Below are positions 3,607-9,467 of a stretch of 22,859 nt of DNA, in pieces. The notes beneath the pieces are model-generated. The model was not told the DNA's origin, did not search any database, and saw only the letters and a program-made list of their open reading frames with translations. This stretch comes from a virus: the IMG/VR virus record IMGVR_UViG_3300023176_000110, positions 1 to 22,859 of that record; one strand, given 5' to 3'. A program made the translations under genes and the position numbers. Numbering within the stretch: position 1 is the stretch's first letter; every line of letters begins with the position of its first letter.

Positions 3607-3705
3607 TCAGTAGTTTATTTGAAGTGCGACAATCTGTCCACAATGAGGACACGTATTTTCCTCTGATTTTACAATCATTTCGCAGTTTTCACAGGTTTTA
3701 ACCAT
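3607..3705 (-). CDS. 32-residue zinc-ribbon microprotein
   Basis: The ATG at 3705-3703 overlaps the stop of the upstream membrane-protein gene (8-base overlap), and the frame ends at TGA 3609-3607. The 32-residue product has two CxxC knuckles, CENC (residues 5-8) and CPHC (19-22), followed by Gly. This is the typical spacing of a minimal zinc ribbon. It is the last gene of the overlapping accessory operon and is probably translated by coupling. Tiny zinc ribbons often mediate nucleic-acid or protein contacts, but no function can be assigned. Four correctly spaced cysteines in 32 residues plus the overlap argue for a real gene. Confidence 0.65.
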   Translation of the reverse strand: MVKTCENCEMIVKSEENTCPHCGQIVALQINY

Positions 3706-3904
3706 GTCTTCTCTTTCGAAAAAACCATCTCCATAAAGTTGAACGTATCATTCCGACGGCAGTAAATATCAATGCTATTCCCATACTATCTAGTATTGTT
3801 GGATATAAACCAAATAATGGGAATACTAATAGTTGTATAATAATGGCAAGTATTAAACCACTACCCACATCTATGATACCTTCAAATAAATCAGATTTAA
3901 TCAT
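3698..3904 (-). CDS. Small two-helix membrane protein
   Basis: The product has 68 residues with two hydrophobic segments (about 10-33 and 40-56) and a strongly basic, aromatic C-terminus (WRWFFRKRRHG), which by the positive-inside rule should face the cytoplasm. Its start overlaps the methyltransferase stop by 4 bases (ATGA), and its stop overlaps the zinc-ribbon start. The sequence resembles a family of small phage membrane proteins of unknown function, recalled from memory as DUF7220-like; this needs a profile search. A membrane anchor for an operon partner is possible but speculative. Confidence 0.75.
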   Translation of the reverse strand: MIKSDLFEGIIDVGSGLILAIIIQLLVFPLFGLYPTILDSMGIALIFTAVGMIRSTLWRWFFRKRRHG

Positions 3905-4983
3905 GTCTTTTGAAATATAAAGGTAGGTTCAAACTTACGACCTGTTATATTAGGTCTTTGATATCTACCCATGTATTGTTGTTTTTGTTTTACTTCGGTA
4001 GCATCTCCGTCTAGTGTTGATACACTTGAACCACCTTGTTGTGTTGATAGAGATAACCACCAAGTATCTGTATGTTTGAAACCTACTTCTAATGCAAGGT
4101 CAACTGTATCTTCTTCAAATGTTTTATATTGTTTAGTGTTCGCAACATTTAATGCAAGAAACTTATCTCGTTTTAAACCTTTAAATGCATTTTTAATTGT
4201 CTGTTTCAGAAAGTGTTCTTTCCACATATCACTTGTATTGAACTTGATACTTGATTGTTCAGGTTCATCACCATATGATTCCCAACCAAAGTATGGTGGA
4301 CTTGTAAATACAAAATCTAAACTTTCTTCTTCGGGATCATATGTTTCACTACCTTGTCTGAGTAGTGTATAATTTTTATGAGAATGACCATATGTATCTC
4401 TAATCTTTTCTAAACCTTCATATGTTGGTATGCAAGGATCAGTACCAATATAATTAATACCAGATGCGATTGCACCTAATAAACGACCACCATAACCCAT
4501 ACTCGGATCCCATACTGTACCTGCCGTTGTACCTTCTAGTGGACTATCTTTATCAACAAAGATGTCATACAATGCAGCCGCAGCCGTAGGTCTAAAGTTT
4601 GATACCATTTGAGTACCACTATATCGTCTTAACATAGAACGCATATCTGATTCTGTAATATCATGTGGTTTCTTTTGTTTGAAGAATGTGCCTGTAAGAA
4701 TTTTATTGATACCTTTTTTGAGATGTTCTTCATCATTCCAAACTTCCATCGGTGTTCTCATTTTACCACATTGAATACCCCATGAATGTTTCATATAAGA
4801 CCATGCAAGAGATAAACCATGTGTCGATTGACCGATGATCTTATTCTTTCGATCAATCATTGTATCTCTTTTAAAATTCATTAAATCATTAAATCTTTTA
4901 TCTCTCCATTCTTTCTTATCTGAATAGTATGGAAATCCTTTGTTCTTCCAATAGTCGTGTGTATCTTGTAATATATCAGTCAT
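3901..4983 (-). CDS. SPPY-type amino-methyltransferase (DNA methyltransferase-like)
   Basis: This 360-residue protein shows a Rossmann methyltransferase core: SAM-binding motif I DPSMGYGGR (159-167), an acidic motif II at TD (181-182) and catalytic motif IV TSPPYFGW (227-234). DPPY/SPPY motifs mark enzymes that methylate exocyclic amino groups of adenine or cytosine in DNA. About 150 N-terminal residues precede motif I and may hold target recognition or a family-specific domain. Motif I precedes motif IV. It overlaps the glycosyltransferase-like gene by 8 bases and the membrane-protein gene by 4, so it is co-translated with them. No restriction endonuclease is present, so it is an orphan enzyme. 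It could methylate DNA for self-protection or catalyse a step of base hypermodification. Motif assignment is firm; substrate is unknown. Confidence 0.8.
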   Translation of the reverse strand: MTDILQDTHDYWKNKGFPYYSDKKEWRDKRFNDLMNFKRDTMIDRKNKIIGQSTHGLSLAWSYMKHSWGIQCGKMRTPMEVWNDEEHLKKGINKILTGTFFKQKKPHDITESDMRSMLRRYSGTQMVSNFRPTAAAALYDIFVDKDSPLEGTTAGTVWDPSMGYGGRLLGAIASGINYIGTDPCIPTYEGLEKIRDTYGHSHKNYTLLRQGSETYDPEEESLDFVFTSPPYFGWESYGDEPEQSSIKFNTSDMWKEHFLKQTIKNAFKGLKRDKFLALNVANTKQYKTFEEDTVDLALEVGFKHTDTWWLSLSTQQGGSSVSTLDGDATEVKQKQQYMGRYQRPNITGRKFEPTFIFQKT

Positions 4984-5992
4984 TTATTATCTCCAAGAAT
5001 TTGTTTTCAAAGATATCATATATTTGATCTTTTGATAGTAATGTTTTTTTATATGATTCATGTATTTCATTAAAGGTCTTTTCATATTCTGTATTCATTA
5101 TCTTATCACACAATTCTTCAGCAGTTTGAACTCTTTGCCAGTTTGATTTTACAAGTATACCTGTTGAATCATAATCTTTATAAACCATTGGTATTATACC
5201 ACACGCCAATGCTTCGTGATATCGACTTGTTGTTGCTTTATTATCTTTCCAATTGAAACACAATGTGTATTTTGATTGATTTAATGTAGGTAATAATCCT
5301 CTCATACCTTTTGTTGGTTCCATATCTCTTTTAACAGTAGAAAATTTACCTATAAATCTTGTAAGATATCTACCCATACCATTTTGAATATCTTTCAAAA
5401 TTAGGTGTCTTTCATCACCACTTTCTATATTACCAACATCTTTTCTTTTTTCTGTTCCCCAATATGAAAACAAATATTTTCTTTTTACAGTTTCAAGTTT
5501 TTCATCTTTTATAAAATGGTACTTTAAAGCATGAACACCACCATCAATATCAATTTCATCTAATACTGATATCTTACAATCAATATTTTTAAAAACTTTT
5601 TCTTTATATAATTCTGCCGTATCACCTCTGTCTGATCTAAGTATGACAATATGTTTGCCTTTTATATGTGGTAGTATATGATCTCTAATGGCAGTAGTTG
5701 ACTTTTCTAAATTCTTTGGATCAATATATACTGATTTGCCACTTTCATTTATTATATGATAATGGAATTCATTTTCACTTGGTATAACAATAATATCACT
5801 ACCTGGCATATCTTTAGAATCTCTACGATTTGCTTTATTAAAACCAAAATTATAATATCCATAATTATATTCTGGATGATTTAATTGAAATCTCTGATAA
5901 AGATAATAGAAAGAATCTAATATATGATCTAGTGGTCTTTTATAATTAACACCACTTCTTAATCTTGCAATCGTTATTTTCCTACGTTCCAA
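4976..5992 (-). CDS. Glycosyltransferase-like protein (GT-B type C-terminal motif)
   Basis: This 338-residue protein ends in a region typical of nucleotide-sugar-dependent GT-B enzymes: RYHEALACGIIPMVYKDYDS (257-276), where a Glu and a small-residue CG/IP turn form the donor site in exostosin-like and group-1 glycosyltransferases. The preceding segment (about 172-255) reads as alternating strands and helices with FSYWGT and YTLCFNW. The N-terminal half is lysine- and tyrosine-rich without a clear motif. The gene overlaps the PLP-enzyme gene by 19 bases and the methyltransferase by 8. Phage glycosyltransferases modify either DNA bases or cell-surface glycans; the SPPY methyltransferase neighbour favours the former. 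The fold call is moderately sure; acceptor and sugar are unknown. Confidence 0.65.
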   Translation of the reverse strand: MERRKITIARLRSGVNYKRPLDHILDSFYYLYQRFQLNHPEYNYGYYNFGFNKANRRDSKDMPGSDIIVIPSENEFHYHIINESGKSVYIDPKNLEKSTTAIRDHILPHIKGKHIVILRSDRGDTAELYKEKVFKNIDCKISVLDEIDIDGGVHALKYHFIKDEKLETVKRKYLFSYWGTEKRKDVGNIESGDERHLILKDIQNGMGRYLTRFIGKFSTVKRDMEPTKGMRGLLPTLNQSKYTLCFNWKDNKATTSRYHEALACGIIPMVYKDYDSTGILVKSNWQRVQTAEELCDKIMNTEYEKTFNEIHESYKKTLLSKDQIYDIFENKFLEIIND

Positions 5993-6726
5993 AATAAAGA
6001 TCCTTTCTTAGCATACTTTCTCATTACTGACCATGCTTTTGCATCATATGTTGGTACTGACGGAAAAGGTGGTCTATCTTCTTCTTTAACTTCTTGTGTA
6101 AACTTATAATCTGATCGATGAAGAATTGCACGGCCAACTTCATGTTGTTTCATTTTATGACCAACAGACACAACATGAACATCTTTTTTAGGAAATGCCA
6201 TTTGCAATCCTCGTGTTAATGTACCACTAGAACCAACTGACCAGACTTCACTCACTTCAATATTATAATCACTTTCAATTGTTTTTGCTAGATTTTTAAT
6301 ATCTTCTAACACTCTATGTTCTTCTAATCCTAAAGGTAATAATCTTCGTCTAACAGGATCTGCATCATAGTATTCTCTTGCTCTTGCCTTTGTCACATTC
6401 AACATACCATTCGGCACCCAACGTATATCAGCACCATATTCTAATGCCTGTTTTTGATAAGGATGTAGATTCTCTAAAGACCTTTTTGCCATAAAGAATA
6501 TTGCCTTTTTATCATATACTTTTGCTTGTAAAGTTAATGATAACTGAGCATATCCATTTGCAGGACATCCACCATAAACAAATTCTTCCGCACCCTTTTC
6601 TATTTCTTCTCTGATTAATCGATCTACAAATCTTCTTTTTGAACCACCTTCTAATAAGTCATCTCTGACAACATGAAATCCTTCGTGTTGTTCTATAACT
6701 AATTTAGGAAATTGAAAAGGTTTCAT
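5974..6726 (-). CDS. Fold-type-II PLP-dependent enzyme, ACC-deaminase/D-cysteine-desulfhydrase-like
   Basis: The 250-residue product starts with a segment much like the PLP site of the ACC deaminase/D-cysteine desulfhydrase group: RDDLLEGGSKRR (21-32), where Lys30 of GGSK is the likely Schiff-base lysine (family pattern GGNK). GGCPANGYAQ (52-61) occupies the place of the family's substrate-carboxylate loop, and GSSGTL (165-170) matches the glycine-rich phosphate-binding loop. It is shorter than the usual 320-340 residues, so part of the C-terminal half is reduced. Such enzymes catalyse beta-elimination, beta-replacement or deamination of amino acids. In this operon it might supply or modify an amino-acid-derived group. 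It overlaps both neighbours (23 and 19 bases). The fold call is fairly sure; the reaction is not known. Confidence 0.7.
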   Translation of the reverse strand: MKPFQFPKLVIEQHEGFHVVRDDLLEGGSKRRFVDRLIREEIEKGAEEFVYGGCPANGYAQLSLTLQAKVYDKKAIFFMAKRSLENLHPYQKQALEYGADIRWVPNGMLNVTKARAREYYDADPVRRRLLPLGLEEHRVLEDIKNLAKTIESDYNIEVSEVWSVGSSGTLTRGLQMAFPKKDVHVVSVGHKMKQHEVGRAILHRSDYKFTQEVKEEDRPPFPSVPTYDAKAWSVMRKYAKKGSLFWNVGK

Positions 6727-7126
6727 TGTTATATTGTTCTGTTATATCGGTTACTTTTAATTTACCGTGTACTTCTACAAATGAATATGTTGGTGTATAT
6801 TGTTCTAAATAATCATATCCTTCTTCTTCAAATTTTTCATCTAGTTCTTCTTCTTCAATACCAACAACACTATTGAAATAAAATGAACACTGATCATCTA
6901 AATCAATATCAACAATTTCTTCACTGTCAAATTCAAAAACATTATTATCATCATCAACATCACCAACAACATCTTCTAATGTTTCATTGTCTTCTAACTG
7001 AATAACAATATGTCCCCAACGATACATTTCTTCGGTCTGAAATCTAACTGACTTATCATCATTTTGAAATCCTTGATATTCAAAGATTGATTTCTTCCAA
7101 GTAGGTTCTATTTTATAATACTTCAT
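6704..7126 (-). CDS. Hypothetical acidic protein, first gene of accessory operon
   Basis: This 140-residue protein is very acidic, with Asp/Glu runs at about residues 45-80 (e.g. GDVDDDNN) and 90-105. It has no transmembrane segment or recognised motif. A good GGAG ribosome site lies at 7136-7133, directly after the CCA end of the upstream tRNA-Thr. The gene overlaps the PLP-enzyme gene by 23 bases. The composition resembles small acidic hypothetical proteins of marine T4-like phages, but I do not recognise the family. A DNA-mimic role cannot be judged from composition alone. Confidence 0.7.
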   Translation of the reverse strand: MKYYKIEPTWKKSIFEYQGFQNDDKSVRFQTEEMYRWGHIVIQLEDNETLEDVVGDVDDDNNVFEFDSEEIVDIDLDDQCSFYFNSVVGIEEEELDEKFEEEGYDYLEQYTPTYSFVEVHGKLKVTDITEQYNNETFSIS

Positions 7127-7136
7127 GTTGTACTCC

Positions 7137-7212
<76 letters not shown>

Positions 7213-7251: not shown

Positions 7252-8964
7252 TTATTGTATAATCCTTGTGAAATTCTTGTATTTTTCTACTTTTATTTGA
7301 TTAGAGAACTTATCTACTAATACATCGGTCTTATGTGATATAATGAATACGTTTTCGTCTTGTAGTGTATGAATTATCTTTAAGAAGTCATCTGTACCAT
7401 TGACATCTAATGAACTATCAAATATCTCATCAAGTATTAAAAGGTTTGTTGATACACTGTTTTTCATTTTTGCAATGGCACGCCATGTAAATAATAATGC
7501 CAAATCAATTCTCATCTTTTCACCTTCACTAAATGATGAATAAGAAAAGTCATCTCTAAATCGACTTTTAATTGTTTCATTAAATTCTTCATCTAATTTG
7601 AAGTTCACAAAGAAGTCCATTGACTGTAAATACTTGTTGATTAACTGATTCATAATTGGTAGATACATTTTGATAATCTTTGTTTTGATACCACTATCTA
7701 ATAACATCTGTTTAGCGGCATTAATATAATCCATTTCTTCTAATGTAGAAATCTTTTTATCGTCTTTCTCTTGTAGATTTTCATTGTATGTTTTAAGAAC
7801 ACCTTGTGCCTCTGATACATTCTTTGAACTGTTCATTATCTTTTCAATGTCTAAATTAATCTTGGTATTAAAATTATTCAGTTCAGTAATAGATTGATTA
7901 TATTTTGCAATCTGAATTTCTTTAACTTTAATCTTTTCATACTCAGTAGTAATTTCTTCTAATCGTCTTTGTTTACCATTAACTTCTTTGTTTAATTGTT
8001 CTAGTGCCTTTTCTAATTCAGATAATTTCTTTGTACCTTCATCAACCATTGAAGTTTTAAATTCTTCATCAATATCTTGTTTACAAGTTGGACATTCATC
8101 TTTCTCTGAATAGAATTTAATATCTTTCTTCTTCTTTGATACTTTATTTTCAATGGTCAATTCAAAGTTTTCTAATTTCTTTAGATTCTTTTTAACTGTA
8201 TCTTCATCAGAGATGATGTTCTTTTGTGTATCAATATCTGATTGTATTTCAGATATTTTATCATTGTATTCTGTTATTGTAGTATTATTCTTTTCAATCT
8301 TATCTTTGTATTCATCAATGGTAGATTGTTGTTGTTTCTCTGCCTCTGCAATATGTTTTTCTTGTATAGAAATCTTATCTTTGAGATGTTCAACTTCTTT
8401 TTCTAAATCTTTAATCTCTGTTTCTAGTTCTTTTTGTTTTTGTTTTGCTAGAATATTCATGGTAGAGAATACTTTAATATCTAAGATATCTTCTACAACT
8501 TCTTTTCGATGTTGTGTTTTCAACTGCATAAAAGGTACAAAAGAAGAACTACCTAGAATAACAACTTGTGTAAATGAACGATAATTGATTTTTAATATAT
8601 TCTGTTCTAAGTATTTCTGATAATCCATTGTCGTTGCATCTTGGTTGATAAGATGATCATTTTGATATATCTCAAATACATTTGGTTTGATACCTCGTTT
8701 AATTAAGTATTCATTCTTACCGATTGTAAACTCTACTTCAACCTCTGTACCACCCATATTAATTGTGTTGATTAATTGATCTTTCTTAATATCTCTGAAT
8801 GGTTTGTTAAACAAAGCAAAACACAATGCATCTAACAATGTTGATTTACCAGAACCATTTTCACCTATAATTAGTGTTGTGTGATTCTTATTTAAATCAA
8901 CTTCGATAAATGTATTACCGGTTGAAAGAAAATTCTTCCATCTAACTTTTTTAAAAAATATCAT
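7252..8964 (-). CDS. 46: gp46 recombination endonuclease subunit (Rad50/SbcC-like)
   Basis: This 570-residue SMC-type ATPase has Walker A GENGSGKS (34-41), a long coiled coil (about 175-410) broken by a zinc-hook CPTC (291-294), the ABC signature FSEGEK (478-483) and Walker B LLILDEIFDS (508-517). T4 gp46 with gp47 forms the nuclease complex that resects DNA ends for recombination-dependent replication and degrades host DNA. The length is close to T4 gp46 (560). The start ATG overlaps the stop of the upstream nucleosidase gene by 4 bases (ATGA), indicating coupled translation within the gp55-gp47-nucleosidase-gp46 operon. Confidence 0.95.
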   Translation of the reverse strand: MIFFKKVRWKNFLSTGNTFIEVDLNKNHTTLIIGENGSGKSTLLDALCFALFNKPFRDIKKDQLINTINMGGTEVEVEFTIGKNEYLIKRGIKPNVFEIYQNDHLINQDATTMDYQKYLEQNILKINYRSFTQVVILGSSSFVPFMQLKTQHRKEVVEDILDIKVFSTMNILAKQKQKELETEIKDLEKEVEHLKDKISIQEKHIAEAEKQQQSTIDEYKDKIEKNNTTITEYNDKISEIQSDIDTQKNIISDEDTVKKNLKKLENFELTIENKVSKKKKDIKFYSEKDECPTCKQDIDEEFKTSMVDEGTKKLSELEKALEQLNKEVNGKQRRLEEITTEYEKIKVKEIQIAKYNQSITELNNFNTKINLDIEKIMNSSKNVSEAQGVLKTYNENLQEKDDKKISTLEEMDYINAAKQMLLDSGIKTKIIKMYLPIMNQLINKYLQSMDFFVNFKLDEEFNETIKSRFRDDFSYSSFSEGEKMRIDLALLFTWRAIAKMKNSVSTNLLILDEIFDSSLDVNGTDDFLKIIHTLQDENVFIISHKTDVLVDKFSNQIKVEKYKNFTRIIQ

Positions 8965-9467
8965 AACTTAGGCAAAACCTCATTCACAAATAACTCTTGT
9001 CCTTTTTCACAATTCTTTTCCCAATCACTAGCATCACCAGAATCACTAATGTATTTGAACACACGATATTTGATATCAAAGAAACGACACACTTTCGCAA
9101 TTGCATATGCTTCCATTTCGTAACAATCATACTCTCTTGTAATGTTTGAAACAAAAGTATCGGATGTAGCACAAATATGATATGACTGACCATTTGATAT
9201 CATTCGCTGATCAAATGGTGTTTCATAGTTTTCAAAACCTAATTCAGTTGCATCCATATCTTTTTGTATAAAATGTCCAAGTTCAATAATCTTTCCTTGT
9301 TTGTGAATCACCGATCCTGCAGTGCCATAATTAACTACAAGTTTTGGTCGATGTTCTATAATATACTTTGTTAATTTAAGTGTTGCATTAATCTTTCCAA
9401 CACCTGTCAATAGAATAGGATGTTTTAATTTACTGACTTCTTCTTTTAATGCTGATACTATAATCAT
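8961..9467 (-). CDS. mtnN: Compact MTA/SAH nucleosidase (Pfs/MtnN-like)
   Basis: The 168-residue protein aligns by eye with E. coli MtnN. It has an N-terminal SALKEEV (catalytic-acid Glu 9/10), TGVGKINA (21-28), GTAGS (48-52), the nucleoside-binding EMEAYAIA (117-124) and the catalytic Asp region ISDSGD (140-145). It is about 60 residues shorter than MtnN (around 230); the strands between the first Glu motif and TGVGK are missing. The enzyme hydrolyses S-adenosylhomocysteine and methylthioadenosine to adenine plus the ribosyl product, relieving product inhibition of methyltransferases. It sits between gp47 and gp46 with ATGA overlaps at both ends. A general purine nucleosidase is the alternative. 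Family is sure; exact substrate is inferred. Confidence 0.85.
   Translation of the reverse strand: MIIVSALKEEVSKLKHPILLTGVGKINATLKLTKYIIEHRPKLVVNYGTAGSVIHKQGKIIELGHFIQKDMDATELGFENYETPFDQRMISNGQSYHICATSDTFVSNITREYDCYEMEAYAIAKVCRFFDIKYRVFKYISDSGDASDWEKNCEKGQELFVNEVLPKL

Follow-up and report, generated by a model that had tools for sequence, protein, structure and literature searches.

Among the systems by which phages hypermodify their DNA, the CmoA-CmoX-CmoY set of Synechococcus phage S-B43 is an experimentally established DNA carboxymethylation and glycine pathway (PMC12783734), the 5-hydroxymethylcytosine (5hmC) carbamoyltransferase system (MetaGPA) depends on a dCMP hydroxymethylase (PMC8670742), and the DNA of Ackermannviridae, phages with a fold-type-II pyridoxal-phosphate (PLP) enzyme, carries 5-(2-aminoethoxy)methyldeoxyuridine (5-NeOmdU; PMC11721090). 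In this study, a 22,859-bp virus record (IMG/VR IMGVR_UViG_3300023176_000110, the whole stretch being called the window) was investigated, in which three overlapping genes on the minus strand encode a fold-type-II PLP enzyme, a GT-B glycosyltransferase (GT) and an SPPY amino-methyltransferase-like enzyme (MTase). We consider it highly probable that these three genes form an exchangeable cassette by which a T4-like marine phage related to Pelagibacter phage HTVC008M hypermodifies its DNA after replication, with a product that has not been described. The hypermodification role is strongly supported by the T4 DNA-glucosyltransferase fold of the GT, by the linkage of the PLP enzyme to the MTase, including the insertion of one within the other, and by the exchange of the cassette with a published pathway; the chemistry beneath it is what we infer. 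A first-pass annotation, made from the sequence alone, had guessed at such a role, and the surface or metabolite role that it kept as a second option is now unlikely.

The cassette resembles CmoA-CmoX-CmoY in placing an S-adenosylmethionine (SAM)-dependent, MTase-like first step on DNA before tailoring enzymes, and in occupying the same genomic slot. However, the two have no homologous gene in common: the Cmo set consists of a C5-cytosine MTase, a Cx-SAM synthase and an amide ligase, none of which is among the open reading frames (ORFs) that the window has from SbcC to the peptidase, though they are present in the related contig L195 (L-numbers label the loci or contigs compared), whereas the window has an SPPY amino-MTase, a PLP enzyme and a GT like the T4 beta-glucosyltransferase (BGT). 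The GT shares with BGT and the T4 alpha-glucosyltransferase (AGT) the fold, the RxxE pair that binds uridine diphosphate (UDP) and the phage setting, but not detectable overall sequence similarity. The Ackermannviridae are comparable in their fold-type-II PLP enzyme, but the partner of the window PLP enzyme is an amino-MTase. Weak matches to a related query, gp2 of Mycobacterium phage Vincenzo (not the window PLP enzyme), extend over more than 300 phage records, mostly of Salmonella, Vibrio and Klebsiella phages and including Kuttervirus PhiSH19. In 5-NeOmdU systems the modified base is thymidine, reached through 5-hydroxymethyldeoxyuridine (hmdU). No gene for hmdU synthesis, hmdU-DNA kinase or amino-acid:DNA transferase was recognised in the window, which is a 22.9-kb part of a larger genome and was not searched specifically for them. 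The ParB-MTase proteins of Erythrobacter, Microcystis, Pseudanabaena and Mycobacterium phages belong to the MTase subfamily of the window and occur with its PLP family, but there a ParB domain is fused and the PLP part is adjacent or inserted; no BGT-like GT was recognised among their neighbours, as far as annotations tell. Finally, a likeness to the 5hmC carbamoyltransferase system is seen in L061, L063 and L065, where the MTase gene is succeeded by split carbamoyltransferase genes; the window has no carbamoyltransferase.

Exchange of cassettes between SbcC and the peptidase

The gene order of the window on the minus strand (sigma-55-like, SbcD, SbcC, cassette, peptidase and CobS, with capsid and tail genes upstream) matches that of HTVC008M (Kyanoviridae). 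Using SbcC as a neutral anchor, 64 IMG/VR loci were fetched; the contigs are fragments, and they were dereplicated by shared 150-mers. Among the closest relatives, it is the genes in between that are swapped, while the flanks do not change, which gives the frame tRNA-Thr and 140-aa gene, cassette, DUF7220, zinc ribbon and peptidase. In the window, tRNA-Thr(TGT) (7137..7212, minus strand, as for the other cassette and flank features of the window below) lies between SbcC and the 140-aa gene and marks the upstream edge of the slot. The 140-aa orphan gene (6704..7126) is conserved, with homologues in L195, which has a CmoX/Y/A cassette, and in L198, which has a DruA cassette. Downstream follow the small membrane protein DUF7220 (68 aa, 3698..3904; PF23858, E 6e-14) and the zinc ribbon (32 aa, 3607..3705; Zn_ribbon_3, E 4e-5), the latter also present in L195 and L198.

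L195 is 93% identical to the window in SbcC and 97% in DUF7220 (93% for L198 and 78% for L196 in the latter), and shares the tRNA-Thr, 140-aa gene and zinc ribbon; the tRNA-Thr adjoins SbcC in L195 and L196 as it does in the window. In place of PLP-GT-MTase, the middle of L195 holds a C5-MTase, an asparagine-synthase-like protein and a CmoA homologue (TIGR00740, E 3e-32, under the curated cut-off of that model). CmoX-CmoY-CmoA homologues occupy the same slot in L195, L201 and L232, while L196 has two TET-associated glycosyltransferases (TAGT, PF20691) and L198 a DruA homologue. Every complete SbcC-peptidase interval among the dereplicated loci (17/17) carries a cassette of these kinds: eight CmoA/X/Y, four BGT-like GT with DruA, two DruA, one TAGT, one second C5-MTase (L206, where a ParB-like gene lies beside it) and one PLP-GT-MTase.

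The first-pass annotation had read six consecutive genes as one co-translated unit. The six ORFs do lie where it placed them on the minus strand, with successive overlaps of 23, 19, 8, 4 and 8 bases, but the six-gene module was rejected, because other cassettes too are flanked by the 140-aa gene, DUF7220 and zinc ribbon. Because these flanks stay constant while the middle is exchanged, DUF7220 and the zinc ribbon are backbone, and the exchangeable cassette is PLP-GT-MTase only; the membrane protein and zinc ribbon, which had been set apart as extra and unexplained, are indeed outside the cassette but are explained as conserved backbone flanks. The slot is a place where phages swap entire DNA-modification chemistries, and it is practical for mining new DNA-modifying enzymes because the closest relatives hold homologues of a demonstrated pathway.

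CmoA/CmoX/CmoY-like cassettes were seen in nine close relatives of the window (L195, L201, L223, L226, L227, L232, L234, L236 and L237), which extends the published 5-carboxymethylcytosine (5cxmC) pathway to HTVC008M-like contigs. DruA homologues in the slot (HTVC008M gp106 at L006:6572-7714, L198, L209, L214, L216, L257 and family c68 in L057) match PF14236 (E 5e-18) and the PADLOC DruA profile (E 4e-14), the Druantia defence protein family; that they lie, in pelagiphage-like contigs, where DNA-modification genes are exchanged hints that proteins of the DruA family may modify DNA. Proteins with a ParB-like N-terminal part, c44 (L035:9913-11133, without Pfam match) and c138 (L032:5550-6845), were noticed downstream of CobS in some contigs with an MTase cassette.

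The three enzymes and their linkage

The MTase (360 aa, third gene of the cassette, 3901..4983) matches phrog_12517 (E 2e-13) and phrog_498 (E 1.5e-7). Its SAM-binding motif I, DPSMGYGG (residues 159-166, 4486..4509), has D159, S161, G163, G165 and G166 invariant, and motif IV, SPPY within TSPPY (residues 228-231, 4291..4302), is invariant in the family alignment. Pfam N6_N4_Mtase gave 16.6 bits, below the gathering score of 26.7, which is passed by a Vibrio homologue (26.9 bits) and by most ParB relatives. A profile of the window MTase family scored ParB-MTases at 20-40 bits and other DNA MTases at less than 3 bits, and for this reason we regard the window MTase and the ParB-MTases as one subfamily with the signature [SC]PPYxxxExYs. 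The naming of an amino-methyltransferase in the first-pass annotation thus finds support in TSPPY and the profile matches, just as the structure models and conserved residues described below uphold its naming of the PLP enzyme and the GT. Three further results concern MTases: the SbcC-peptidase interval of the window holds no nuclease gene that could be a cognate restriction endonuclease; PADLOC returned only weak MTase_II matches; and HCTV-2 gp12, considered as a CmoA partner of a ParB-MTase, was rejected, as it is a piece of an N6_N4 MTase. Serratia phage eta, which has a ParB homologue yet no modified bases, was set aside as having no bearing on the question.

The neighbourhood search that the first-pass annotation had proposed uncovered, besides the sharing of the slot with CmoX/Y/A, TAGT and DruA cassettes, a close linkage of two of the genes: of 54 dereplicated contigs with full coverage, 53 have an SPPY/CPPY MTase no more than 7 kb from the PLP gene, the exception (L119) having a C5-MTase-like gene near the PLP gene instead. 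The ParB-MTase of Erythrobacter phages R6L and ZS04, and likewise that of Pseudanabaena phage Pam4, contains the PLP domain within its chain, between motif I (DPFAGG, residue 341-348) and motif IV (CPPY, 662-686), and in Microcystis phage Mae-JY30 and Mycobacterium phage Vincenzo the two genes are adjacent. Being fused or adjacent there, the two enzymes are kept together in phages of unrelated hosts, and the insertion of one within the other speaks for a substrate that both act on rather than one that diffuses. No description of this pairing was found in the full texts searched, so that its novelty is relative to the searchable part. The fusions occur in cultured Erythrobacter and Pseudanabaena phages, which makes the chemistry open to direct mass spectrometry of virion DNA.

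The PLP enzyme (250 aa, first gene, 5974..6726; phrog_7093, E 2e-31) gave an AlphaFold2 model (pLDDT 89) with the tryptophan-synthase-beta fold, that is, fold-type II, whose relatives at Z of about 20 include D-cysteine desulfhydrase, ACC deaminase and O-acetylserine sulfhydrylase (VIA Z 20.7 to an ACC deaminase homologue). K30 in RDDLLEGGSK (6637..6639), presumed to be the Schiff-base lysine, is invariant in 19 aligned homologues along with R21, D22, D23 and G28, and in GSSGT (residues 165-169, 6220..6234), the presumed phosphate-binding loop recognised by sequence, G165, S166 and T169 are invariant. The window enzyme has no Pfam match and does not reach the PALP gathering score, while relatives from Erythrobacter and Microcystis phages, Vincenzo and Pam4 pass PALP (35 bits). 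Sequence searches of the PDB with the MTase, the GT profile and the PLP enzyme gave nothing significant, and structural comparison had to be used. Pattern-seeded searches, whose counts are lower bounds, detected relatives on at least 571 viral contigs, mostly of T4-like phages among those examined, against at least nine loci in 84,980 bacterial and archaeal species genomes; several of these nine look viral, with a ParB-MTase adjoining the PLP gene or a T4-like SbcC neighbourhood. The cassette as a whole points to an uncharacterised DNA-hypermodification pathway with this widely spread PLP enzyme. No PLP enzyme was found in the 170-kb contig G001 or in HTVC008M by a search run without positive control.

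For the GT (338 aa, TTG start, second gene, 4976..5992), sequence searches of Pfam, NCBIfam and the PDB gave no significant match. Its AlphaFold2 model, built from 15 relatives (pLDDT 76, pTM 0.79), recovered T4 BGT at ranks 1-3 in Foldseek (best E 7e-8), and VIA aligned it to BGT with Z 17.4 over 288 residues (rmsd 4.0), compared with Z 14.9 for AGT and 14.1 for the best other GT-B protein among those listed, PimA. R257-x-x-E260 (5213..5224), invariant in the 15 relatives, is the counterpart of the UDP-binding R269/E272 of BGT in automatic alignments. D121 (5630..5632; KHIVILRSDRG against SKIYYLFTDIR), also invariant among the relatives, is proposed as the counterpart of the BGT catalytic base D100: it fits after the same strand when aligned by eye, the automatic alignment being gapped at D100, and the global alignment is colinear at both ends with the middle misplaced. 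Since the model is closest to T4 BGT and AGT and the R269/E272 pair is conserved, the GT is a probable DNA glucosyltransferase, for which UDP-glucose would be the likely donor. It is 50.6% identical to HTVC008M gp104, a GT that adjoins 2-oxoglutarate (2OG)-oxygenase, cupin and DruA genes. No PF00303-type hydroxymethylase matched in nine related records, mostly fragments and none of them both complete and known to have the whole trio of window genes, but including full-length HTVC008M, which has the GT; the acceptor is thus probably not 5hmC made in the T4 way.

The MTase is accompanied by varying sets of partners. It may have a PLP enzyme, by itself or with a GT; a PLP enzyme together with split carbamoyltransferase genes and a second GT; a divergent PLP enzyme beside a D-2-hydroxyacid dehydrogenase; or a PAPS reductase. 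A further partner of 380 aa is Asp-hydroxylase-like 2OG (PF05118) in its C-terminal half and GNAT-like, by reading of the sequence, in its N-terminal half; another set has these two functions on separate genes and no PLP. Amino acids or hydroxy acids are substrates for many enzymes of the types listed here. The apparent GNAT and Asp-hydroxylase-like protein was seen directly upstream of PLP in L187:4796-5944, L164, L166-L168 and L172, and the two functions occur as separate genes (c14 and c19) in L038-L040 and L070-L075. Split NodU/TobZ-type carbamoyltransferase genes (PF02543 and PF16861) lie right downstream of the MTase in L061, L063, L065, L080 and L085. A PAPS-reductase gene stands between PLP and MTase in L113:3716-4396 and L185, and the Erythrobacter phages have one close to their fusion gene. 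An overlap between the ParB-MTase gene and a gene for SAM decarboxylase (PF02675, E 2e-19) was seen in Croceibacter phage P2559S and in three related contigs (L263:2856-4494; L265-L268), and a possible consequence is aminopropyl transfer to DNA.

Proposed chemistry and alternative explanations

In the mechanism that we propose, the SPPY enzyme would put a SAM-derived group on the exocyclic amine of a base (N4 of cytosine or N6 of adenine), the PLP enzyme would convert its amino-acid arm, either on the DNA-attached group or on the SAM-derived donor, and the GT would use a UDP-sugar to attach a hexose to a hydroxyl group of the product; the finished modification may shield virion DNA from host nucleases. 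More tentatively, and as a possibility rather than an expectation, what the SPPY/CPPY subfamily transfers to the base amine might be the amino-acid arm of SAM, intact or remodelled, and not a methyl, so that the DNA would have bases bearing an amino acid. Such an arm could then be tailored by PLP, Asp-hydroxylase-like 2OG, GNAT, hydroxyacid dehydrogenase and glucosyltransferase enzymes in combinatorial sets. Hints of this are the SAM decarboxylase overlap, the PLP insertion in the MTase and the partners of amino- and hydroxy-acid type. Precedents for steps of these kinds are CmoX with carboxy-SAM (PMC12783734), carbamoylation of 5hmC (PMC8670742) and the 5-NeOmdU phages (PMC11721090).

Several observations weigh against the hypermodification cassette. 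The GT model is of moderate confidence (pLDDT 76), and by sequence the enzyme barely resembles BGT (hhalign probability below 3%), leaving structure and a short motif as the link; DruA is no proven DNA-modifying enzyme, so that part of the 17/17 count is by deduction; and some contigs have MTase, Asp-hydroxylase-like and GNAT genes without PLP or GT, which means that the steps are separable. An ordinary sequence-specific N4-cytosine or N6-adenine MTase directed against host restriction, with PLP and GT as unrelated neighbouring auxiliary metabolic genes, would agree with the intact TSPPY and motif I, with the several contigs that have the MTase without PLP, and with the many phages that carry ParB-MTases with no PLP nearby, such as Listeria phage B054. 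We nevertheless hold it to be very unlikely in view of the 53/54 linkage, the PLP insertion inside the MTase, the closeness of the GT to DNA glucosyltransferases and the exchange of the entire cassette with hypermodification cassettes.

It is also unlikely, though less markedly so, that hypermodification proceeds with a plain methyl while the PLP enzyme supplies another step with a free small-molecule donor or amino acid, for example by beta-replacement or elimination, and the GT adds a sugar. The insertion in the MTase chain favours a shared substrate, and no ligase attaching a free amino acid was recognised among the window cassette genes, but the PLP fold is that of free-amino-acid enzymes, and the PAPS-reductase gene in L113 and L185 could feed sulfur chemistry. 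As to a surface-glycan or lipid pathway of host or virion, in which the GT would act on an envelope or capsid component, the PLP enzyme would supply an amino sugar or amino acid and the MTase would cap the product, the GT-B fold is common to lipid and glycan GTs, such as PimA, and carbamoyltransferase and cytidylyltransferase genes lie downstream in L061-L067. Amino-sugar synthesis typically uses the type I aminotransferase class, and the window PLP enzyme is of fold-type II; DNA GTs lead as fold match by about 3 Z units, motifs of DNA amino-MTases and relatives fused to ParB are seen for the MTase, and the slot is shared with CmoX/Y/A, all of which make such a pathway very improbable.

Gene overlaps and neighbouring genes

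Most related loci that hold these gene pairs likewise show the overlaps of 19 bases (PLP/GT) and 8 bases (GT/MTase) (30 and 34 loci, respectively, not dereplicated), and these overlaps are therefore regarded as real and conserved. Overlap alone is no proof of a module, because the SbcD, nucleosidase and SbcC genes on the other side likewise overlap by 4 bases. This nucleosidase-like gene (168 aa, window 8961-9467; PF01048, 5'-methylthioadenosine/S-adenosylhomocysteine type) lies between SbcD and SbcC, as in L195, and its product could remove SAM-derived by-products of the MTase step. A peptide-deformylase-like gene (c6, for example L012:5455-6015), which the window does not have, was observed right after SbcC in most of the cassette-bearing contigs.

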